This document shows positions 13,865 to 56,708 of a stretch of 64,000 bases of DNA, piece after piece. A model generated the notes under the pieces. It did not search any database. It was given only the letters and a program-made list of their open reading frames with translations, and had not been told where the DNA came from. Origin of the DNA: Chaetoceros tenuissimus (taxonomy: Eukaryota; Bacillariophyta; Thalassiosirophyceae; Chaetocerotales; Chaetocerotaceae); contig BLLK01000047.1 of the NCBI GenBank assembly GCA_021927905.1, positions 1,984,001 to 2,048,000 of the forward strand. Direction: 5' to 3'. Made by a program: the position numbers and the translations under genes. The first letter of the stretch is position 1. Each line of letters begins with the position of its first letter.

Positions 13865-16800
13865 CTATCTACGATATGGTCTTATTCTACGGATGTTCAC
13901 CCTTTCCAAAATGCCTGGTCTGCGACGAATGGTAACATTTCCATTAACATGAACTTGCGTTATCTGAAACGGACCCTCAAATCTTATATCCAATTTGCTT
14001 GTAGTTCGATATGAATCTGCAATTACCAATACCCAATTTCCAACTTGATAATTATAATCAATTCGGTTATCATTTTCTCTTTGATTGCTTCTATCAACTA
14101 TTTCTTGCCTCCTAGCTCTGAGATTATTCAAATCAACAATGAAAGGTAAATTCAAAATCATATTCCTTTGAAACGCTAATGCTCCTGGAGATGCATTCAT
14201 CGTCGAATGTACCGCAGTTCTCAATGCATAAACAGTATTGGCAAGTAAAGTATCTATTGCTTGAGTTGCTTCTGCTACTGTCTGTGGTGGATGCTGACGA
14301 AGTAAAGATCGAATTTGATTGAGCATTGTTTGATGCATTCGTTCACAAATACTATTACCCTGTGGATTTCTGGTAGTGATTTGTGCTGGTCTGATATTAA
14401 ACCTATTCAACATCTCCTGAAACTCTGATCCTGTAAATTCACCTCCTTGATCATGAATGCACTTAACCGGTCTAGGATACCTTGAAAGCCAATTATTTTC
14501 AAACAACGTTGCTATATGATTTGCATGTTTGTTTTGAATACGTACTGCTTCGACAAGGTTAGTATCTTGATCCACCATTGTCAAGGCATGAAATTCCACT
14601 GTTACTCCTTGCACTTTGAATTTCCATGGTCCAATTAGATCTACTGCTACCGTATGCCAAGGATTCATAGTAACTGTTCTTGGAGGTAAATGTCCATATT
14701 GAACACTAGCTGTCTTGTTTACTTGACATATTTCGCATTTAGAACAAATCTCCTTAATGGTTTCTGTAGCTCTGGGACTAAAGAAGTTTTCGTTGAAGGT
14801 TTTCTTCAATTTTTCTTCACCGCAATGATTAAGAGCATTATGATACCACCGCAAGATACGTACGGAATACTGCGTTGGTACAAATATCCTATCTTTGTAC
14901 ATCACGAGTTGCACTTGAGGATTCATCTGTCGTAAAGAGTAATCAGCTGGGCTTCTCTGTCTTAGTTGCGCTAATTGCATATCCTGTTGTTGTGCTAAGG
15001 CTATTCTGTTGTAATCCAAAGGAAAAATAGCGTTTTCAGCGACATTAATAAACATTTCAGACAAAGGTAAATTTGCAAAACATTCTGCTAACCGAAGATC
15101 ATCAAAAATTAAATCCTGAAAGAAAGATTCTTCCAAGTTTCTTTTTGTACTAGGACCATTACTCTTCTCCTCAAGAATCTTACTGTCAACTTCCATACGT
15201 GAGAAATAATCTGCACAAGTATTGACTTCGCCCGGAATAAAATGTAATTGAGGTCCGAATTCCTCTATGTACATTCTCCAGCGTAGCATTCGTTGGGATG
15301 ATATATTCTTGTATGTAAGATTTTTATGATCAGTGTAAATGTGGATTTGAGCACCTAGAAGCATAGTACGGTAAGTTTTTAATGTCTCGAAGATCGACAA
15401 AAATTCCTTTTCACCAGTAGGATAATTTCGTTGAGCTGCATTAAGCTTCTTTGAAAAGAAGGCCACTGGTCGAAGATTTCCATCAGCATCATGCTGAGCC
15501 AGTGTAGCTCCCAACTGATAGTCCGAGCTGTCGGTATAGATAAAAAAAGGTTGGTTATGATCAGGATAAAAAAGAAGAACGTCTTTCGCCATTGTTGCTT
15601 TAATTTGCTCAAACGCTTGCTGCTGTTCTGTGCCCCAGTGGAAGTTGTTTGTCTTTAAAAGATCTGTTAGCGGCTTCTGCAAATGAGCTCTACGTTGCCA
15701 CATATCTTTATAAAAATTTACAGCCCCTATGAAACTGCGTACTTGCTTCACATTTTTAGGAGGTTGCATGGCCAAAAGCGGTTTGATCTTCTTGGACCAA
15801 GGTTTTAGTCCACTTGGAGTTAACCAATGTCCGAGCCAATCAGTTTCTTGTACGGCCCATTCACACTTGAGTGGATTCATAGTGAATCCGTGATCCTGCA
15901 GCTTTTTAAGTATACGCTGAATCTTACCAACATGTTCGTTCCAATCATCGGAGAAGATACCAATATCATCGATGTAGATTTCACAGTCCTCATCACGTAG
16001 CACATTTTCCATTATCTCTTGAGCAATGTCTGGAGATTCCAGAATCCCCATTGGCAGTCTGTTATACTTATACATACCAAATGGAGTAGTGATTGTGCAT
16101 AAGTTTTTGCTTTCCTCATCCAACTCGAAGGTGTAATATTGCATCGAAATATCAAGCTTGGTAAAAAATTTGTACCCTTTTCTCCTTTCGAGAATGTCTT
16201 TAATTCTTGGTAGCTCATACTGTTTTCGTTGCAAATTCTTATTTAGATACCGGAAATCGCTTACCCAGCGTACCCGACCGTCCTTCTTTGGAATAATGAA
16301 AGTTGGAGCAGTCCAGATGGATCGGTTAGCGGGAGAAAGAACACCTTGTTGCACCAAACGATCAAGTTCTTCCTTGAAAACTTTTTCGTGTGCATAAGGA
16401 ACCTTGTAAGGGCGACTCTGACGAGGCTGAGCATCAGGCTTGAGATGAAGATGAACCTTGCTATCAGGATATACTTTTAGTTGACCATCAAATAGCGTAG
16501 TGAACTCGTCCAGTACACGATGTAGATCTTTCCTCTGTTCTTCTGACAAGTGCTGCTGAGCATCTGCTACTTCTTTTCCTGAAACTTTGTCATACTTAGA
16601 CTCCAGAATAAAAGATTCATCTTGCTCCTCCACTTCATCATCATATCCATATTCAGTGAAGGCTAGCTGCACATTCGTACGGTTATTCCAATGACGACGA
16701 GATTTCATGGAAACGGTGATGTCCATCCAAGACATTGTTTGGTCCTGGTAGTTCAGTACTAAGCCCATTGCTGCCAAAGTTCTCTGACCCAAGATGATAT

Positions 16801-17305
16801 CATGAGGACACACTCCATCATGTACAAGCGCAAAGATCTTTTCAATATTATGCTTTCTTCCAAACTCGGGCAATACGCTATTTTCTAGAATTACATATTG
16901 TTTGAAGTAGACAGTACCACCTATGCCAATAGACGGAGATGCCTCTGTTAAATCATAAACTGGACAATTCTTCGGTAAGGCACGTCGATGAATGATGTCA
17001 CAAGTTCCACCGGAATCAAATAGAGTTCTACATAACTTCGTATCGCGATGCCCATTAATAGTGCGAGGTTGCAATAATGAGACTGGAGCAGTTAATGGAT
17101 CCTTTTTCATTTGGTCGGCTTGCACACTGAGACTAGCTTCCACTTCAACGGGTGGAGAGGAAATAAAGTCATAGACATCCATTGGAATCGAAGTTGCGAA
17201 GTATTCTTCCCATAGGATTTCTTCCTCCTCTTGAGGAGTCTTCCAGAACTGTTGTTTTGCTTCTTGTTCCCAGAAGCATTCTCCAAGTTCCAAAGGTGAA
17301 TTCAT
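13865..17305 (-). CDS. pol: Pol polyprotein of the Ty3/gypsy element
   Basis: One frame of 1146 residues. An aspartic protease site is visible near residue 98 (LFDSGGTCDIIH). The reverse transcriptase has FTKLDISMQYYTFELDEES and the catalytic YIDDIGIFSDDW near residue 443. RNase H begins at FFIYTDSSDYQLGATLAQ near residue 587. The integrase has an HHCC zinc finger (HNALNH...CSKCEICQ, near 820-860) and a catalytic core with VDLIGPW, HDQGGEFTG near 950 and ERMHQTMLNQ. It ends with a GPY/F-type module (RFEGPFQI, near 1108), which is typical of Ty3/gypsy. No chromodomain is seen. The frame starts about 180 bp after the end of the gag frame. Confidence 0.95.
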   Translation of the reverse strand: MNSPLELGECFWEQEAKQQFWKTPQEEEEILWEEYFATSIPMDVYDFISSPPVEVEASLSVQADQMKKDPLTAPVSLLQPRTINGHRDTKLCRTLFDSGGTCDIIHRRALPKNCPVYDLTEASPSIGIGGTVYFKQYVILENSVLPEFGRKHNIEKIFALVHDGVCPHDIILGQRTLAAMGLVLNYQDQTMSWMDITVSMKSRRHWNNRTNVQLAFTEYGYDDEVEEQDESFILESKYDKVSGKEVADAQQHLSEEQRKDLHRVLDEFTTLFDGQLKVYPDSKVHLHLKPDAQPRQSRPYKVPYAHEKVFKEELDRLVQQGVLSPANRSIWTAPTFIIPKKDGRVRWVSDFRYLNKNLQRKQYELPRIKDILERRKGYKFFTKLDISMQYYTFELDEESKNLCTITTPFGMYKYNRLPMGILESPDIAQEIMENVLRDEDCEIYIDDIGIFSDDWNEHVGKIQRILKKLQDHGFTMNPLKCEWAVQETDWLGHWLTPSGLKPWSKKIKPLLAMQPPKNVKQVRSFIGAVNFYKDMWQRRAHLQKPLTDLLKTNNFHWGTEQQQAFEQIKATMAKDVLLFYPDHNQPFFIYTDSSDYQLGATLAQHDADGNLRPVAFFSKKLNAAQRNYPTGEKEFLSIFETLKTYRTMLLGAQIHIYTDHKNLTYKNISSQRMLRWRMYIEEFGPQLHFIPGEVNTCADYFSRMEVDSKILEEKSNGPSTKRNLEESFFQDLIFDDLRLAECFANLPLSEMFINVAENAIFPLDYNRIALAQQQDMQLAQLRQRSPADYSLRQMNPQVQLVMYKDRIFVPTQYSVRILRWYHNALNHCGEEKLKKTFNENFFSPRATETIKEICSKCEICQVNKTASVQYGHLPPRTVTMNPWHTVAVDLIGPWKFKVQGVTVEFHALTMVDQDTNLVEAVRIQNKHANHIATLFENNWLSRYPRPVKCIHDQGGEFTGSEFQEMLNRFNIRPAQITTRNPQGNSICERMHQTMLNQIRSLLRQHPPQTVAEATQAIDTLLANTVYALRTAVHSTMNASPGALAFQRNMILNLPFIVDLNNLRARRQEIVDRSNQRENDNRIDYNYQVGNWVLVIADSYRTTSKLDIRFEGPFQITQVHVNGNVTIRRRPGILERVNIRRIRPYRR

Positions 17306-17488
17306 GATGGATACAACTCCTGTTGATTAGTTAATAAAGAAAATAAAGAAAAAATTGGATGAGACAAATTGAAATTACATAAAATGGCTCACTTCGTGAG
17401 TACTTGTGATATTGAATATCCAGATGTGGAAATTTTCGTTTCCAACAAGTCCTCACGAAGCGGCCTTAAGCCTATTTAATCGTGGACC

Positions 17489-18676
17489 TTAATTGAACGC
17501 ACCATGATGTGCTCCCCAGACGTTGTTATTGTCCATGAGGAAGTGTTGTTCATTACTGCCATTCGAACCCTGCTGGTTTGAACCGTTTTCTGGATTGCTA
17601 CGAGTATTAGCATTGTTATTATTTTGAGTTCCTTGATAATTGTAGTTCTGATTCTGACCATGTCCTTGATTGTTACCGGAGTTATAGGACTGTCCTCCAT
17701 TATTGTTGTGGTTGGAGTGGTTATGATGACCTCTTCCTCCACCGTTACCACGGCCTCTGCCGCCATAACCATTGCCACGGCCTCTGCCTCCTCGGCCTCT
17801 GCTACCAGTATCACCACGGAAATTGGCACTTCTTGGATTAAGAATGCAGTCCTCCCATTCATGATTATTATGTGGAGGCTCATGTCTGGTACACTGGTTT
17901 CTGAAGCCACCAGTCTGACCGCGTCTGTTTCCTTTCTTACGCTGCTTGAACTTCTGATTCTTCAGATCTTGATGACGAGCACGCTTCTTGGAAGTATCAG
18001 CATCTGCAGTACTCTTCTGGCGTTCCATGTACTCACTAATCTCATTGATAGACTTTTCATGATACACAGCTCCTGAATTGGTGAAATTCAACTTCCATTG
18101 ATATGGGAAGGAATCAAAAACAAGCTTCTTCTCAAGGTTATCATCAGGTCTTGGCGCTACGATTCTCAAGAGTTCCTTGGCATATCCTACAAGAGTACAG
18201 AATCTCCCTACATGCTCCGCAACACTCTTGCTCTTTTCCTTTCTCACTTTATCAGAACGCAGGTACTCTAGAAGAGCATCTCCTCCAGAACGCCCTCCGC
18301 AGAACCTAATCATCATAAGGTTCACTGCAACTTGAAACTTGTCTGCATTTGCTGCTGCCACTACATCTGCATGGGTGGAAACAGTATCAGTCCAGTAGTG
18401 TTGCGCTACCCCTTTAAGCACATCCTCAAAGTTCTCGAACTTTTCTAGGTCGTCAAAGTTTAGCTTGCGGTTGCTGGCTGCGGAGATAAAGCGCTCACGT
18501 ACATAGAGAAAGGCTTCCGCGTTTCCAGTGCTTCCACCTTCTCCATCAAAGGTTGGCAAACTCTCTTTGCGATAGGAACCATCAGCAAAATCTTGCTGAA
18601 GCTTGATAGTTACGAAGTCTGCGTAATCAAGGGCTGGCCACATTTTGATTGGTGTATTTGCATTAGAATCACTCAT
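17489..18676 (-). CDS. gag: Gag-like protein of the Ty3/gypsy element
   Basis: 395 residues starting 19 bp inside the 5' LTR. The first ~220 residues are mostly helical and charged, as expected of a capsid-type domain. A basic stretch (KKRARHQDLKNQKFKQRKKG) and a Cys/His cluster CTRHEPPHNNHEWEDC, perhaps a variant zinc knuckle, follow. The tail is rich in RG/GRG then Asn/Gln, suitable for RNA binding. Assignment rests on position, composition and order relative to pol rather than a clear family motif. Confidence 0.85.
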   Translation of the reverse strand: MSDSNANTPIKMWPALDYADFVTIKLQQDFADGSYRKESLPTFDGEGGSTGNAEAFLYVRERFISAASNRKLNFDDLEKFENFEDVLKGVAQHYWTDTVSTHADVVAAANADKFQVAVNLMMIRFCGGRSGGDALLEYLRSDKVRKEKSKSVAEHVGRFCTLVGYAKELLRIVAPRPDDNLEKKLVFDSFPYQWKLNFTNSGAVYHEKSINEISEYMERQKSTADADTSKKRARHQDLKNQKFKQRKKGNRRGQTGGFRNQCTRHEPPHNNHEWEDCILNPRSANFRGDTGSRGRGGRGRGNGYGGRGRGNGGGRGHHNHSNHNNNGGQSYNSGNNQGHGQNQNYNYQGTQNNNNANTRSNPENGSNQQGSNGSNEQHFLMDNNNVWGAHHGAFN

Positions 18677-18695
18677 TGTGATTAGTAATTACTAG

Positions 18696-47605: not shown

Positions 47606-48013
47606 GGATTGAGTTCTTTAGATGTATTCATGAAGTTGTTTTCAAATGGGAAGGTGTTGCAGTGTTTGCAGTGTTTGAGTGTTTGTGTCAAAAAGTGACT
47701 CTGAAATTGGAAATCCAAATCCAAATCAACCGAACCGAAAGAAGAATCTTCTAGGTCGGGTGGGCGGACAGACCAATTATCTTCAGTGTAGGCCTTTTAT
47801 GTGGGACAAAGGGAAAGGGGCGGTCACCCGACACCAACACCCGACCCAAACGAGAAACAGAACGCAACACAGAACAAAATACAAAATGAAAAAGAAACAA
47901 ACACTTTACTTTCACTTACTTACGAGCACTTCTTGGGCACACTCTTTCTTCTGATAACAACATTACTTCTTTCCTTGATAGTTCTGAGTAATCAATAAAA
48001 TAGAAGTGAAAAT
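47606..48013. promoter_or_regulatory. Divergent intergenic region, transporter / prolyl hydroxylase
   Basis: 408 bp. A segment near 47740-47880 is GC-richer than its surroundings (GGGTGGGCGG, CACCCGACACC). No RNA gene or TATA box recognised. Confidence 0.4.
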
Positions 48014-49624
48014 ATGATGATGTTAGGAGGTAGAAAGAAGAAGATTGAGAACCCCTATCATCAAGACAATACCTTCCCAAATATTCCAAGGATACTCTTT
48101 ATATCTCTAATCTTTGGTGTTCCAATTATTTCTTTCCTAAACAGAGATTATATTGAAGCGGCTCTGTTTGGAATAAAATCAGAATATGCATTATCATCGA
48201 GATCTTTGCATGGACCATTGTCATCGCAATCTAGTTTCTCAAATGATGTAGATCCCAACCTCAAAACAATGACCTTCCAGTTTCCAGATGAAAACGAACC
48301 TAGAACATTTGATGCATATGTGCAACCAGATGTAGCTTCATTTTACAAAGGTAATCCTCCATCCACAACTATACAAGAACCTCGATTTAAAGGTCTTGCT
48401 GGTAAATTTGTTAACTTTAGTCCTGACCACTTGCAATTATACTGGGATGATGGGCGTGAGGGAATGCATATTGCAGATTTACCTCCTTTTCAGGCTGCGG
48501 GTACAGCAACGTTCCCAGTTCATAGGTTTTTCTTCAGTAAGCGAAATGGAGATAAAAAAGAAGTTGTTCATAGGGTACATATCCAACCTCATCAAAATTT
48601 GTATATCCATGACGCATTTGAAGAAGGACATGCCAAAGTCGAAGATTTAACAGGTGAATTGTTAGAATTGTACAATCTTCAAAAGAAGAATCTTTATTTC
48701 GCAAAGGAATATAGAAAATTTACAGGGAGAGACTGGCTATCTTTCTATCCAGCAACTAAGAAACCAATCTACAAAATGTGGAACGCTGATTATTTTGGAC
48801 AGCAGCATTGGGTCACTACAACTGAAACTCATTTTGTGCTGGAACCACCTGAAGATTTACTCACACAAATGACTCATGATGAAATGTTTCGGGATCGGAT
48901 ACAACACCCAGATATTAGAAATTTAACGGAATATAGGTCGAAGGAACCATTACTCAACATGACAATGACAGTGCTTTCTGTCTCCCCTCGTGTTTTCGAA
49001 GTGAAATCTTTCCTAAGTCAACAAGAAGTGGATCATATTGTTCACATGGCTACTGGAATGAAATTGTCTTTGTCAACTACAAGTGCAACCGATGGAAAGG
49101 ATGCAACGTCAAACTCAAAATCCAGAACTTCTCATAATTCATGGGTTGGAAGAGCAAGATCTCCCATCATGGATAGTATTTATGCAAGAGCAGCTGATTT
49201 AATGCGACTTGATGAGGCATTATTAAGGCAAAGGCACAAAGATGAAATTCCTGAAATTGATCATAGGTCTAGCAATGCTGAGGATTTGCAACTTGTTCAT
49301 TATGCAAGGTCTGAAGAATACACTGCACATCATGATTTCACATATCCTCCTATCCATTCAAGGGGACAGCCAGCTCGATGGTCAACTTTACTTTTATATC
49401 TGAATCAAGGTATGGAGGGAGGAGACACATGTTTTCCAAAATATGTCAATGCAGAGACTACCGGGAAACTCTGTGTCACACCTGAAATTGGTAAAGCAGT
49501 TCTATTCTATGACCAACTTCCTGATGGAAACATGGATGATTTCAGTCAGCATGCTGCAGAACCTGTTCGTAAAGGCGAAAAGTGGCTCATTAATTTGTGG
49601 ACATGGAATCCTCGATTTCGCTAG
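48014..49624 (+). CDS. Prolyl 4-hydroxylase-type dioxygenase, membrane anchored
   Basis: Fe(II)/2-oxoglutarate dioxygenase that hydroxylates proline in secretory proteins. 536 residues, no intron. A single hydrophobic segment at about 24-40 (IPRILFISLIFGVPIISFL) suggests a type II membrane protein of ER/Golgi. The catalytic core occupies residues ~325-535: FLSQQEVDHIVHMA, VHYARSEEYTAHHDF with the metal His and Asp (HxD), LLLYLNQGMEGGDTCFPK, then FSQHAAEPVRKGEKWLINLW with the second His and the Lys that binds 2-oxoglutarate. The ~280 residues between are unusual for P4H and hold a beta-rich region of unknown family. Confidence 0.93.
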   Translation: MMMLGGRKKKIENPYHQDNTFPNIPRILFISLIFGVPIISFLNRDYIEAALFGIKSEYALSSRSLHGPLSSQSSFSNDVDPNLKTMTFQFPDENEPRTFDAYVQPDVASFYKGNPPSTTIQEPRFKGLAGKFVNFSPDHLQLYWDDGREGMHIADLPPFQAAGTATFPVHRFFFSKRNGDKKEVVHRVHIQPHQNLYIHDAFEEGHAKVEDLTGELLELYNLQKKNLYFAKEYRKFTGRDWLSFYPATKKPIYKMWNADYFGQQHWVTTTETHFVLEPPEDLLTQMTHDEMFRDRIQHPDIRNLTEYRSKEPLLNMTMTVLSVSPRVFEVKSFLSQQEVDHIVHMATGMKLSLSTTSATDGKDATSNSKSRTSHNSWVGRARSPIMDSIYARAADLMRLDEALLRQRHKDEIPEIDHRSSNAEDLQLVHYARSEEYTAHHDFTYPPIHSRGQPARWSTLLLYLNQGMEGGDTCFPKYVNAETTGKLCVTPEIGKAVLFYDQLPDGNMDDFSQHAAEPVRKGEKWLINLWTWNPRFR

Positions 49625-50122
49625 AATATCAATCGTAAATGCTTAAAAGAATACCTGCATCATAAGCAGGTCACAATAATAAATCCCAATTTTTAGAAAA
49701 AAAAGAAAGAACCCTTTTTTGTCAACTTTTTGTCCAAATTTATTTGCCCCCCTGTCCTTGTGAAGGGACCATATCAATTTCTAAAATATGATCTTAAAAT
49801 GAGAAGCCTAGGTTATTATGTACGTACTACTGCAGTACTCTCTTCACGACCTAAGTTCTAAGATACAGTAGAGTGATATCGATAGAGTGCAACAGTGCCA
49901 GTGCAACGCAAAGAAGAGAGAGTTTTAAAGCTTTTACTACTCTATGCCCAATAAATAAAAACACAGCCACAGGGCGATTCCTATGTAGAAAGGGGCATCA
50001 CAATAGCAAACAATAGAGCTCGTACCAACAGCATAACCGAAACTGTATTCACGAACGGGCATCACAATAGCAAACAATAGAGCTCGTACCAACAGCAAAA
50101 CTGAAACTGTATTCACGCAGTC
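49625..50122. other. Intergenic and 5' leader with tandem duplication
   Basis: 498 bp between the prolyl hydroxylase stop and the SIR2 gene start. The last part holds the 64-bp tandem repeat described separately. Runs of A and C near 49695-49755. No gene seen. Confidence 0.5.
49993..50118. repeat. 64-bp tandem duplication just before the SIR2 gene ATG
   Basis: Copies at 49993-50056 and 50057-50118 share GGGCATCACAATAGCAAACA and GAAACTGTATTCACG with only a few differences. The second copy ends 4 bp before the ATG at 50123. The unit contains no ATG. Duplicated DNA at the very 5' end of the transcript could affect transcription start or translation. Confidence 0.9.
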
Positions 50123-53100
50123 ATGGCCAATAATCTGACAGCCTGCTTCAAAAGTGGCAAGTTCGTCGTGAAGTATGACTTGGACAATAGCCTCGAACTT
50201 GCCCTTTACGATCGTCTTGAAGTCAAGGAGATTTTTACTCATGAAGGAATGGAGGATAGTGAAGACAATCACATTACAACTGCAGTCCAGATAACTAGTT
50301 CCACTCTTCACACTGACGAGATTGTAGTAAAACCTTTAGCCCCACTAGGTCTTGGAACTGGCAAATATTACGTAAGGTTCATTTTATCTTCAGGAGATAA
50401 GGAAATAGCTAGATCTGAAGTTTTTGAAGCAGACCAAACAGCTAGTGATGACGATGACATATTAACAAAAGATAGCGATTCTTGTAAGATCGAAATTATA
50501 AAGATGCTGAAAGTGAAAGATAATGAAAAAGAGAATACAGAGGTTGAGTTGAGTTGGAAGTTTGAAGGAGAGCAAAGACAGATATTGGTCGATCATTTAT
50601 CTCATTCTGATTTCCTAGTTATAATGCCTAGTGATAAGACTGATGACATAAAATCAGAGTATGCACTGCATGCGTTTGCAATGGCATCGGGACAGCCAGA
50701 AGGCTCTGTAAAAATTCGAGTAGCTGGTCTTTGTAATGCGGAGGGAGAATATCAGGCGCTGTATTATGATAGTGATAAGTCAGTGTGCAGAGGAAAAAGT
50801 TCGCCATTTTGCATCGAGAAGGACTTATTGCCCAATGTTAACTATGAAGATGAAGAACTTCTTCAAAATCTCAAAAACGAATCGTCTCAGTTTAACACTA
50901 TGGCAGTTATGCAATACACAGTTCATGAACACATGCAGAAACTAAAAGCTTCAACAGATTACAATCCTCTCATCACAGCAACCATTGAGCAAAATAAATG
51001 GGATAAGATGATCGAGGATGATCGCAAAAAGTATGAAATGGTGGAAAAAGAAGTCGAGGAAGAGTTGGAAAAGGCAAAGAAGAATGATTCAGGCATGGCA
51101 GATGAGCAAAGCGATGAATTGATATCAGATGTCGAGACTGAGGCGATTCTTTATAAAGCTCTAGAAGAAAAACCTGCCTTTCTATATTGTGGAGCAGGAA
51201 TATCAATTTCGGCTCCATCTTCGTCGCCATCATGGTGGACTCTAATGTCCAATGTTCTAGAAGAGACTTTCAATGCAGTTCCTGAGGAGCATCAAAAAAT
51301 TGCAAAAAAGCTACGTACAAGCGACAATCATAGAAATCCCGAGGAAATTATGGAAACATATTATTTTGTCCTTCAAAAGAAATTGTTTTCCCTTTTTCAA
51401 CTTTTAAATGAAGGCGAGCCCAATGCAAATCATCGAATCATAGCAAAAATGGTGAAACATGGAAAGCTTCGCAGCATCTTGACAACAAATTTTGACGAGT
51501 TTATTGAACGTGCTCTAGATGTTGAAGGCATTGAATATAGAGTCATTTGCACTTCTGAAGAATTTCAGGAATATAAAAACTCTGGCTACAGTGGATTCAC
51601 CATCCTAAAAATTCATGGAACTGTCTCTCGACCAGAGACGATTGTTGCGGTAGCTAATCATTACAAGTCAGGAAAGGGTTTCGGTGGAGTGAAATCTACA
51701 GTGACAGCTCATTTCGTCAAAAATTATCCAACGGTATTTTTCGGCTACTCCGGATACGACTTTATACATGCCAACTACCAAGCTTTTTGGGAATCAGTGA
51801 AAGACTCTAAAGAAAAAGTGTACTTTATAAAATATAAAGGAAGTCGAGGAGGACCGTCAATTCAGAAATTGGTAGGAAGGCATATTGGAGGAAGGTTAGT
51901 TATTGGTGAAGCGATTCTACCTGACCTGGCAATCAAAGTGATGGAGAAATTTGACATCAATGATTCTAAGGAAGTTCTAGACTTTCATAGTTCTATTGAC
52001 TCTGCAGTTGGACAAGAGATAGCAAAGAAACAACGAGACTACGTCAAAAACTGGGTGGGAAAAATTTCCAAGGCAAGTTGTGCAGTATTGCTTCTTTAGA
52101 TTTCATATGCTACTTCTAATGAAACCCTTGAAAAATAGGTGGCTATCCTAGCAATTTTATGGACAGAATCCAGTTATCTAAATGAGTCCACTAACCTCAG
52201 AGAAGAAAAAATGAAAAAAATGAAGGGGGAGAGTGATGGAGCTGGTACAGATGCTGCGGGAGTGACTGCGTACATGTTGCAACTTTCTACTCAAGTTGGA
52301 CAAGGTATTATTACTCAAGAAGAGTATCTTCAAAAACAAAGAAGGGCAACAATGGAAATCACCTTTTCGTACGCTGCAATTCCTAAGAAACAAAAAGATG
52401 AACTAATTGAAATTTTACTTGCTGAGACAGAGACGAATTCATTGCTCAAAGGTCCAAACAGTGATGACATCCTTGCAATGTTTCCATCATATTTGATGAT
52501 GGCAGGAGATACTGCAAACGTCGATGCTTCCGCTCGAGAAATCTTTGATGATGTTTTGGAATATGTAAGAGACACTCTAAACCCTCTCTATGAAAAGAAA
52601 GAGAATGGAGATAAGAAAGCTGAAGTACTTTACAAATTTTATTATTCCCAATCCGGCTTCTTGAGAATTCGGAAAGAAGAGGATCGTGTTGAAGCTGAGG
52701 AAATTATAAATAAATATGCAGATGATGCAGTAGCCCGTGGACTGACTGAAGAAGAAGTCACAGATTTGGCCACTAAAGAAGTAGGCCCGACAATCACAAG
52801 AATTGCATATCAACAAATTGATATAAGAAGCTTGATCAAATCTCAAGGTGATGATATAGTTAAAACAAGTTCAAGTGGTGGAGCAACTATTGATGATATT
52901 TTGGAGTCTGCATTCATAATTGCGGTTACTCTACAACGACAGGCTGCGTTTAGAAGCAGTGATGCGTATCAGTCACCTGTTATGAATCAAATTGTCGGTA
53001 TGATCAGTCTCAATGAAGAAAAAGAAATACCAGCAGAGATGTTGAAAAGGCTCGAAGATGAATTGAGTAGTGACTTTCAACAAGTTATAGATATTGTTGA

Positions 53101-54335
53101 AAAGCTCGAAAGTAATGATGAAAGAGGAACTTACTTAACCCCCCGAGAGGTGTTGTCTACCTTTGTCTTGGCAAATGTGGAAGTCATCAAAGCGTGTTTA
53201 AAACACATTGGTGATAGTGCTCAAAAGCAAAGAATTAGAGAAAGTTGTGGATACTATCCAAAAGATCCAATACCACCAGCTGTAGCGTCGTATTTATCCA
53301 ACAGAATGGAGGAAGCCGCACATTATATAGAAGATGATAGAGCTGAACAGCCGGCTTTGGCTATGTTGGTTTCTCTTGGAGAGATCCAAGACAACATCCC
53401 GCAGATGCAGAAAGCAGTTGATACTTCTCTTGCGATCACTGAAGGAAAAGTGACTGAGCTTACACCTCCTCCGATACCAGAAGCCTTGGCTGCTGCGTAT
53501 CAAGCTCAAGGAAATTTTGATAAAGCAATGCATTATTACAAATTGGCATTAGATGGGATTCAGAGTAAGTAAAAAAACAACAAATTGACCAGAAGATTTA
53601 CTCTGTGTGACTCACTTGCATTCGAAAGCATTTGTAATCAGGCAAAAGACTGACAGTATCGTTCTTAATGCCTGTCTTGTAATTAATGAGCAAATCGGTA
53701 AAGAAGAAGCTCTGCGAACAGCATTTGATTACAGTCCGTACTTTACGGACAACCAGCTCAATATTTTGATCGGCCCTTCCAGAGGTCTCCTTGTACAACA
53801 GTGTGAAGCTTGGTCTAAAGAACTTGGATTTGATTCTCTTTATACAGCTAAAGAAACTCTTCTCAGATCTGATCCAGAGCAAAAGGGAAGTTCTGACAAT
53901 ACTTTTATTGTTACAGACAAGAAAGAAAATGAAGTGAAGGTAGTCAAAAGTAATACAGCTGGCGGTGTCCGTCAGGATGGTTCAGACTCCTTTGATCCGA
54001 AAGAAAAATCGCCAAAAATTGAAGCAAATCCTGACAGTACTGAAGTAGAAGAAACGTCGAATATTCCAGTCGTGGCAGTAGATGACTCAATTAGTAATAA
54101 TGAAAGAAACAGTCCGCTGGATCAAGGACAAACGACAGAGATGCCTCGTTCAGACCAACAAAATAATTCGCAAAAGATTTCTTCAGGCCCAACAGGCCCA
54201 ACCGAAGTGAATTCGTTGAGTTTCAAGCAGACTATGAAACTCATACACGAAGAAGATACAAAAGATAATGTGAAAAAAGTCAAAGCTGCTGCAGTACCAG
54301 GAAACAATAGTTGCGGATCTTGCATTGTCAGTTAA
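50123..54335 (+). CDS. SIR2-domain (NADase-type) protein with TPR-like tail and CaaX box
   Basis: Three exons: 50123-52072, 52139-53564, 53629-54335. The introns are 66 bp (GC-AG, AAG/GCAAGT) and 64 bp (GT-AG). Joins read KISK-VAILAILW and DGIQ-TFVIRQK, both in frame. About 1360 residues. Residues ~1-265 form two beta-rich segments, each ending in a similar motif (KYYVRFILSSGDKEIARSEVF and EYQALYYDSDKSVC), like Ig/SKICH-type sandwiches. Coiled coil at ~270-345. The SIR2 domain spans ~345-600: FLYCGAGISIS, LTTNFDEFIERA, ILKIHGTV (catalytic His) and FFGYSGYDF. No Cys pairs lie between IHG and GYSG, so the sirtuin zinc module is missing, as in prokaryotic defence SIR2 and FAM118 proteins. The rest is helical with a TPR-like ALAAAYQAQGNFDKAMHYY near 1100, then a disordered tail ending CGSCIVS, a CaaX box. 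Role unknown. NAD cleavage or binding is inferred. Confidence 0.88.
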
Positions 54336-54340
54336 TTTTC

Positions 54341-56708
54341 TTACTTAATTATATGTTTTTTATCGAAAATTTTCTTGAGGACTGATTTTAGATGATCTTC
54401 CTTGTTCTTTACAGGCCTGCCCCGCTGGAATTCCATTAGACCGCCCAATGCATCTGATGTTGATAAATTTGTCAAAAGCTTGCACGTCTCTATGCTAGGA
54501 AAGTAGTCCAAATGATTGGAAGAGATTAGATTCTTGATAATTAATCGTAACATGGATGGCAACTCATCAATACCTAAACTTTGTCTCGATGTAGAATGCT
54601 TGTCATCACTTTGGTTCATGGTATGTGTAGACAAAGGGATAGCAGGATTTTTTGAAATGATAGTATTTCCTTCAACAATTGATGAAATAGAAGTAGAAAT
54701 TGGAGTTGATCCGCCACGTGGAAGAGACTGCATTGATTTCTTCTTTCGTGGAATACGTGGGTTCTGTGAACCTTTAGTTTCATTGTGTAACATATTTGAA
54801 TCATGCACAATAGAGGGTTCAATGGGGGTATGTGATGTCGCCATATCCTTGTCAATAGTCTTGTTTGAAGATAAAGACAAGGAGGGACCTTCACTGGTGG
54901 TTATGTGGTCAATTGTCTTTGTTTCATTTCTACATGTCTTGATTCTATCGTCTCTCAAGTTTACCCAGTCTCTACCTACTAGAAAATCTAATTGTTCCTT
55001 CAACTCGCTTTTAACTTTTCCAGCGTGATATAGGCTGCATTGGATTTTGAGCCAGGGAGTAATATACAACTCTGCGCAAGCACCTCCAACAGCAATATCT
55101 TTCTACAAGTGTGAAGGAAAAGAAAAAATTACAAAAAGAAAACCAAAACTAATAAGAAGCTGCGAACTCGACTTACAAGTAACCCACACTTTCGCTTCAG
55201 TGCATTCAATACATGTTCTGTTTTGCAGAGCTGCCAATTAAATCCCAACTTCGTCAACTTTTCAATCCTAGAAAATGCAAGAGAACCATCTAAAATTGCC
55301 TGTCTTTGGGCTTTAGTCCACTCCACTAAATCTGCCGAAAACTCTGTCCTGAATTTCTCCTTGTTTGAGACGTGGCCGCTCCAAATTAGGTTTCTTCTCT
55401 TCATTTCTATTCTATATTCTACAAGGCGACGATACATTTTATCCCAGTCATCAGCTTGATGTCGAGATGATTCGCCCTTCATTTTTTGGAAAGATTCAGC
55501 CTCACGATGAACATATTTTTGAAGTGAAGCAACAAAGGCAGACTTCGAATTAGTTTTGTTTTCTTTTTCATGGAGGCATCTATCTCGAGATAACAGGGAC
55601 TTTTGTTTGGGCGTACTTTGTTTTTCAATTTGGCTGATTGTCCCTGGAGTCATTTGACAATCTCGTTCCCCCTTGGCCATGCCAATGACTTCGTTTTCGC
55701 ATTCATTACTCGTCTGTTCAGTAGTCTCTTTCTTTTCGCCTTTTCTCTTGGATTCTTCCTCGTAGTCTGAATCATCACTACTGTCATCAACCATAGCGCT
55801 ACTCTCAGACATGTAGTCTAAGCAAAGTTCTGCAGAGAGAGATAAGTTACCTTCCCATGGCTTTACTTTTCGTTGATTTAAATTTGTATATTCCTCGTCT
55901 CCATCATCATAGATTATATGATGAGGAGTATCGCAGTTGATAAGAATATTATTGATTGTGCCTGCAAAATACTGTTTTTCGTAGGGCCACCAGACTAATA
56001 CTCTACTGTGAAGAGCGAAATCATCCTTTGCTGCGACCTTTTGATCCTCTTCGCTTCTTGTAATTGTTTCTAATAAACTCCCGTCGACATGACATTGGGA
56101 AGTTATTCGTTTTCGTTTAGTTTCTTTGCCATTGTTGGATATACCAAAGAGTAAGTCAGTCTGTTTCTTGGTTTGTGTTGTGGACTCTGCTTCCACGTTT
56201 TTCCTCTTTCTGGAGACTTCAAGTTTTTGTTGCAAGTCAACTTCAGTTTCCGACTCGATATTTGTCGATTTACAATCTTTACAGTTCTGAACACTCGCAC
56301 ATATCTTACTTTGCTTCTCATCACTTGTAGAAGTATCTTTTCCTGAATGTATACACTCATCTTGAATCGAAGCTTGTACGAAAGCAATTACATTACTGAT
56401 TTTCTCAATCTATTTTAATCAGCATATATTTTCTCTCAAAATATCAAAAGACAAAATCGAAAGAATGTACTTACAATTCTATCAAATTGCTTATCTTGCC
56501 TTAACGTCCGATAGGTACTGATAGATAATCTACAGCTTGGGCATTCCTTTCTGCATGAACGAAGTGCCGTCTTTATGCAATCTCCACAAAAACGATGCCC
56601 ACAGTCTGGGTTTATATGTGTGTTGCTACAATTGTCCAAACAGATTGCACAGTCAAACTCTTCACGGAGAAGGTCCTTCAAGAGAACTTCAGTATGCTGC
56701 AAACCCAT
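54341..56708 (-). CDS. RING finger, Tudor-like and helicase-associated domain protein
   Basis: Exons 56475-56708, 55177-56409 and 54341-55102, introns of 65 and 74 bp. Joins: DRI-IEKISNVI and KCGLL-KDIAVGGACAEL, in frame. About 742 residues. A RING finger sits at ~19-60 (CAICLDNC...CGHRFCGDCI...CPSC), suggesting E3 ubiquitin ligase activity. A Tudor/PWWP-like strand set follows near 205-260 (HSRVLVWWPYEKQYFAGTI ... IIYDDGDEEYTNL). The helicase-associated (HA) motif near 400-460 (WDKMYRRLVEYR ... FSADLVEWTKAQR ... KLTKLGFNWQL) is greatly expanded in diatoms. The linkers are acidic and Lys-rich. The last exon (KDIAVGG... onward) is disordered apart from its ends. Likely a nuclear chromatin-linked ligase. 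That role is inferred. Tail-to-tail with the SIR2 gene (5 bp between stops). Confidence 0.85.

Follow-up and report, generated by a model that had tools for sequence, protein, structure and literature searches.

Background

Proteins of the SIR2_2 family occur in bacteria, archaea and eukaryotes, and FAM118, membership of which is set at no less than 41% identity to human FAM118, is described as a vertebrate-specific clade among them (PMC12700824, as far as consulted). In bacterial DSR2, SIR2 domains with the catalytic residues N133, D135 and H171 are linked to helical repeats, the part to which phage proteins bind (PMC11263360, as far as consulted). SPARSA is described as pairing a SIR2-APAZ protein with a short Argonaute, and the antiviral SAMD9 family of eukaryotes as combining a variant Sir2-like domain and tetratricopeptide repeats (TPRs) with AlbA, STAND NTPase and OB-fold domains. 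ThsA, of the Thoeris system, carries a SLOG ligand-sensing domain. Here we analyse a gene at positions 50123..54335 of a 64,000-nucleotide stretch of the genome of the diatom Chaetoceros tenuissimus (contig BLLK01000047.1; the whole stretch is hereafter the window), the product of which carries two beta domains, a SIR2 core, a long C-terminal region and a predicted prenylation box, and belongs to a family common to eukaryotes and Asgard archaea.

Set beside these systems, the window protein has in N456, D458 and H498 the counterparts of the DSR2 catalytic residues, and like DSR2 it continues in a long region behind SIR2, whereas DSR2 is bacterial and neither beta domains nor a CaaX box appear in the description consulted. 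With the SAMD9 family it shares a SIR2 domain and a TPR-like unit, but the AlbA, STAND NTPase and OB-fold domains of that family are not matched; nor did Pfam and PADLOC scans of the three exons find any SLOG, STAND, AlbA or APAZ-type partner domain, so that the SLOG domain of ThsA has no match either. Solved FAM118 chains run to about 300 residues; in the fold alignments their match is confined to the SIR2 core, where 253-262 residues align with 15-16% identity. The Asgard 'SIR2 family protein' (P0064 of Promethearchaeum syntrophicum, P0075 and P0080 of Lokiarchaeum ossiferum) has the SIR2 core, the same C-terminal region and the same presumed catalytic residues, but the rows examined lack the N-terminal beta domains, the tail and the CaaX box, and no function for it was found in the literature searched. 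The kind of enzyme is already known and the domain architecture is new. Neither this order of parts nor full-length Asgard kinship was found described in literature searched by title and abstract opening, a body in which subscription journals are thinly covered, and the words 'Asgard', 'diatom' and 'stramenopile' are absent from the main text of PMC12700824.

An immune-type SIR2 core in a three-exon gene

The gene lies on the + strand, as do all its features given below. Exon 1 (50123..52072) encodes residues 1-650, comprising two beta domains, a helical linker and the complete SIR2 core, as judged from its open frame, homologues and an AlphaFold model; exon 2 (52139..53564) supplies residues 651-1125 plus one base, a C-terminal region recognised by homology to its Asgard counterpart; and exon 3 (53629..54335) holds the end of that region, a low-complexity tail and the stop codon. 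Between them lie an in-frame GC-AG intron of 66 bp (52073..52138) and a GT-AG intron of 64 bp with a GTAAGT donor (53565..53628). Both joints are supported by P0001, a database protein on a 4157-base contig that is 89% identical to the window protein and reads ISK/VSILAILW and DGIQ/TFVIRQKT unbroken across them; its source type is not stated and is most simply taken to be complementary DNA. P0001 has 113 residues fewer, chiefly of the low-complexity tail, and retains the CIVS end, while P0022, 91% identical to exon 1, ends by running into the same first intron as the window gene. In-frame splice alternatives of GT-AG type at 52077-52151 and 53569-53641 were ruled out, since P0001 backs the GC-AG pair and the GTAAGT donor. 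The gene is a single copy in the assembly of 41,027,912 bases and 68 contigs. The assembly also has 63 matches to chlorophyll-binding proteins, fragments among them, and a contig of 116,465 bases with psaA and psaB, of which PsaB is nearest to the Chaetoceros gracilis structures 6l4u and 6ly5. The coordinates, frame, motifs and domain order given in an earlier note made from the letters alone are correct.

The SIR2 core (51128..51946, residues 336-608) is recognised by Pfam, structure prediction and fold comparison together. Pfam SIR2_2 (PF13289) matches at E 3.4e-14, with 53.6 bits against a cut-off of 24.5, and two PADLOC models match in the SIR2 part only: PDC-S65, along 68 residues (E 1.9e-19), and ThsA, from residue 343 to 515 (E 6.3e-13). 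Within the core lie GAGIS (51191..51205, residues 357-361), by analogy with sirtuins the NAD-binding loop (NAD, nicotinamide adenine dinucleotide); TTNFD (51482..51496, residues 454-458), with the presumed catalytic Asn456 and Asp458; KIHG (51608..51619, residues 496-499), with the presumed catalytic His498; and GYSGYD (51743..51760, residues 541-546). Asn456 and Asp458 are present in 25/25 eukaryote-type and 54/54 Asgard-type rows, and both His498 and Asp546 of GYSGYD in 24 of the 25 and all of the 54; N456, D458 and H498 thereby provide the active-site Asn, Asp and His of the immune SIR2 NADase kind.

The zinc-binding Cys pairs required of canonical deacetylase sirtuins (PF02146) are missing: residues 345-605 contain two Cys in all (356 and 476), and no row, eukaryote-type (25) or Asgard-type (54), has a CxxC between residues 495 and 605. 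The loop that reads GIPDFR in canonical sirtuins reads SPSWW in the window protein. Trp371, matched by motif position only, stands where FAM118B has W65 and SIRT1 has F273, residues described in the consulted text of PMC12700824. AlphaFold, given exon 1 (650 aa) and a 44-row alignment, predicts a SIR2 fold without a zinc module at about residues 336-608, with a mean pLDDT of 87.1 for the exon; the placement of the domains relative to one another is unreliable because pTM is 0.53. In the fold comparison this core scored, among the 50 matches listed, 22.3 with SPARSA, 20.0 with ThsA, 19.4 with KomBC, 18.5 with DSR2, 17.8 with Avs5, 16.4 with PsSIR2 and 16.2 with SIR2/HerA, all of them prokaryotic and all above FAM118B at 15.0, with the best deacetylase, Hst2, at 14.0. 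The core resembles the NAD-destroying proteins with which bacteria counter viruses.

A family common to eukaryotes and Asgard archaea

The SIR2 core and the region following it form a family common to eukaryotes and Asgard archaea, and over this whole length the closest relatives of the window protein, as judged by sequence and among the searches made, are Asgard archaeal. In the sequence searches, scoring was confined to the 8000 candidates with the most words in common. With the full protein as query there were 13 matches; with an alignment there were 44, of which we count 34 as eukaryote-type, four (P0035-P0038) as Asgard-type and six as SIR2_2 proteins of other kinds, and because 34 of these are eukaryote-type relatives the window protein is not a chance product. 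A third search returned 71 matches, of which 59 are of Asgard type, two of eukaryote type and ten other SIR2_2 proteins. Among the 59, an Asgard name is attached to 19, with Promethearchaeum syntrophicum represented and Lokiarchaeum ossiferum twice, and no other organism is named. A contig scan relying on two short patterns, and covering 84,980 species by a single genome apiece, found 16 loci. The ten archaeal loci are named Lokiarchaeota, Sigynarchaeota, Prometheoarchaeum or Harpocratesius, all of which we take to be Asgard; eight match nearly the whole query and two are cut by contig ends, while in the six bacterial loci the match is limited to part of the SIR2 domain.

The kinship extends beyond the SIR2 core. 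A profile built from the C-terminal regions only of 23 eukaryote-type rows found those of all 54 Asgard-type rows, the worst at E 3.6e-27 for a nominal database of one million, and none of 108 reversed or shuffled decoys; when 14 other SIR2_2 proteins were represented by their C-terminal parts, one scored E 0.014 and one 470. Since the Asgard rows came from whole-protein searches, this profile tests the region and is not a discovery of it. By name, the 54 rows divide into 16 Asgard, two from marine sediment metagenomes and 36 without an organism, with no other organism represented.

Trees of the SIR2 domain alone recover a eukaryote clade (100/99) and an Asgard clade (89/96), joined against 19 other SIR2_2 rows (99/97). 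The same clades are kept (99/99, 88/91 and 100/98) when 12 of the 98 rows, namely seven outgroup, two eukaryote-type and three Asgard-type, are left out. The rows are proteins from the searches and two paralogues from the host genome, a set without FAM118, ThsA or DSR2 sequences. Eukaryote and Asgard groups also separate when the tree is built from the full body or from the C-terminal region by itself, with 77 of the 79 non-outgroup rows (two eukaryote-type rows were dropped for length); in the latter tree P0012, a long row of which the program warns, joins beside the Asgard side. As both clades are single, the trees cannot choose between descent and transfer. The named eukaryotic members are mainly stramenopiles, with few named sources: P0025 is Paraphysomonas, a chrysophyte stramenopile, and P0010, P0011 and P0021 come from EukProt or MMETSP. 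This narrow named spread leans towards transfer, with poor sampling. P0023, labelled Batrachochytrium salamandrivorans, also falls in the eukaryote clade and has a near copy, P0026, from a metagenome; its chytrid label may reflect assembly contamination. Asgard rows start just ahead of the SIR2 core, and beta domains were seen on the eukaryote side only, the tail with CaaX in just one eukaryotic clade.

Beta domains, C-terminal region and lipid anchor

The exon 1 model bears out the two tandem beta-rich domains proposed earlier, with seven strands in each: domain 1 (50132..50413, residues 4-97), which has no Pfam match, and domain 2 (50483..50797, residues 121-225), which is weakly SKICH-like by PF17751 and hhalign. 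SKICH is the sole recurring Pfam family for these domains, in 4/11 and always below the cut-off; domain 2 of the window protein matches at E 0.041 (14.8 bits against 23.4) and the best relative's domain at E 0.00032 (21.6 bits). An hhalign comparison with NDP52 SKICH gave a probability of 34% and an E of 0.00043 for a single pair, and the beta-domain profile met one match only among PDB sequences, at E 0.59; the fold-comparison list, filled by SIR2 matches, carries no information on these domains. The SKICH likeness is thus a lead. P0010 and P0021 appear by eye to have additional copies of the beta domain. The coiled coil of the earlier note survives as two long helices (residues 244-277 and 292-321; 50852..51085), modelled with low confidence as a coiled-coil-like linker between the beta domains and the core.

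The region encoded by exons 2 and 3 is presumed from its sequence to be long and helical. The TPR-like unit assigned to it does correspond to a TPR_1 match at exon 2 residues 450-471 (53486..53551), although at E 0.001 this falls under the cut-off. The last four residues, CIVS (54321..54332), form the predicted CaaX prenylation box, and a CaaX end is conserved in 16/23 C-terminally complete relatives, a count that takes P0017 as complete by eye and leaves out P0034, whose truncated end agrees with the pattern only by coincidence. The 15 CaaX relatives scored for an LLVQQ-type motif end at least 69 residues beyond it, and the seven without CaaX end 29-31 residues past it; long tail and CaaX occur together. 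A second Cys, a possible palmitoylation site, stands two to three residues ahead of the CaaX Cys in 15/16; the window protein ends in CGSCIVS. The host genome has four matches to prenyltransferase (PF00432) and five to ICMT (PF04140), the latter a model that also responds to bacterial controls. A lipid is probably attached at the CaaX Cys.

Proposed function and alternatives

We propose that the protein is a SIR2 enzyme of the immune (SIR2_2) type, tethered to membranes, in which the C-terminal arm controls the cleavage of NAD, and that it may serve virus-triggered cell death. In its favour are the fold ranking, the three active-site residues, the missing zinc Cys pairs, the PADLOC ThsA match, a long region behind SIR2 like that of DSR2, the Asgard homology of this region, the trees, the pairing of tail and CaaX, and the prenyltransferase and ICMT matches of the host. 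Taken whole, this reading has about an even chance; NAD cleavage by itself is probable, and a role in defence or cell death falls slightly short of even. In the arm gating, lipid tether, trigger and defence role that we infer, the large C-terminal arm would either restrain the activity or set it off, after the manner of DSR2 in bacteria. The protein would be brought to membranes by its beta domains, which are perhaps SKICH-like, and by a farnesyl on the C-terminal Cys; a trigger met by the arm or the beta domains would switch on the SIR2 domains, which would destroy NAD+ and so stop or kill the cell. Autophagy and membranes are mentioned, in connection with the RNA virus, in the highlights of a study on infection of C. 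tenuissimus. A further and more tentative reading, less likely than not, concerns origin: a cell-death or antiviral NADase whose body of enzyme and sensor is shared, within the reach of the searches made, by Asgard archaea and mainly stramenopile eukaryotes would be an immune module that eukaryotes received from an Asgard lineage, either through descent followed by losses or through gene transfer, and to which membrane-recruiting SKICH-like domains and a lipid anchor were added later.

Several points weigh against this proposal. The SKICH likeness stays below the Pfam cut-off, and no chain of DSR2, a protein with a HEAT-repeat region, is among the 44 matches of another sequence search. The main text of the RNA-seq paper on C. 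tenuissimus infection does not mention SIR2, and the host genome shows no recent copies or expansion of the family. Both the full and the reduced SIR2 tree drew a program warning about long outgroup branches meeting that of the family. Catalysis is not retained in every member, because four relatives have altered motifs: GPGIS in P0016 and P0019, GDDVS with LRG and GCSG in P0017, and GAEIS with GCTGWN in P0018, all in a seven-row clade the other members of which, P0006, P0014 and P0015, show no change at the motif positions checked. The Asgard surroundings also speak against a typical defence island. Ten neighbours, one or two genes from each of 7/10 Asgard loci, gave no PADLOC match, and several look like housekeeping genes. 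Among the ten are ribosomal L16, a tRNA endonuclease (twice), a nucleoside hydrolase, a PAS histidine kinase, an MFS transporter, a CD36 protein and an HDAC-like protein; the other two have no match in Pfam. The membrane-tethered, NAD-consuming sensor of the earlier note is supported in part.

The same surroundings suit a resident signalling or metabolic enzyme that uses NAD in cell physiology, perhaps as a glycohydrolase or cyclase gated by stress, rather than in defence. Asgard genes of this family stand beside ribosomal L16, tRNA endonuclease and a transporter, the family has one named member in Promethearchaeum syntrophicum and two in Lokiarchaeum ossiferum, and it is conserved over 34 eukaryote-type matches without recent copies in the host genome; but every fold entry listed above FAM118B is a prokaryotic protein, from SPARSA to SIR2/HerA, and we consider a resident role unlikely. 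The altered motifs of P0016-P0019, together with the filaments of FAM118B and the synergy of FAM118A and FAM118B (consulted text of PMC12700824), recommend a scaffold or filament former for which catalysis would be a secondary matter or would require a partner, yet the window protein and all 54 Asgard-type rows retain N456, D458 and H498, and such a role is improbable. Least likely is a protein deacylase of the classical sirtuin kind: its one recommendation is a PF02146 match at E 0.0064 (16.9 bits, under the cut-off of 24), and it is opposed by the absent zinc Cys pairs, the SPSWW loop and a best deacetylase that scores below FAM118B. P0016-P0019 retain CaaX ends and are possible pseudo-enzyme partners.

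Genomic surroundings

Two 64-bp direct repeats, the second copy 95% identical, lie immediately 5' of the start codon (49990..50117, + strand), and a frame further upstream (47999-49624) looks prolyl 4-hydroxylase-like by eye. On the minus strand, an open frame has its stop six bases beyond that of the gene (54335-54341); if this frame is a gene, the 3' ends of the two transcripts probably overlap, the stops being about six bases apart. Frames at 13865-18688, with a polyprotein and a gag-like frame, resemble by eye a Ty3/gypsy-type retrotransposon. The same genome has two further SIR2_2 genes, both distant from the window gene: one on contig C34 near 2308881-2309531, with a sub-threshold TPR match behind its SIR2 core, which groups in the tree with a protein from a Methanosaeta metagenome-assembled genome, and one on contig C54 near 92207-92662. 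In two Asgard loci a tRNA intron endonuclease gene follows the SIR2 gene on the same strand (L019:10788-11420 and L020:4654-5310), and in a Lokiarchaeote a CD36-family protein (PF01130, E 5.1e-69) adjoins it (L018:10886-13396).

Implications

Several eukaryotic immune modules have been traced to prokaryotes, with Asgard archaea studied as a source, in a paper whose main text does not mention SIR2 (PMC11291487, as far as consulted). Asgard archaea are regarded as the microbes nearest to the ancestor of complex cells, and it is the Asgard link that carries the chief interest of the present gene: the family gives proteins related along the SIR2 core and the following region in Promethearchaeum syntrophicum, Lokiarchaeum ossiferum and a diatom. 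Single-stranded RNA and single-stranded DNA viruses are described from Chaetoceros, and because the family is present both in named Asgard archaea and in a diatom of that genus, both sides can be assayed.

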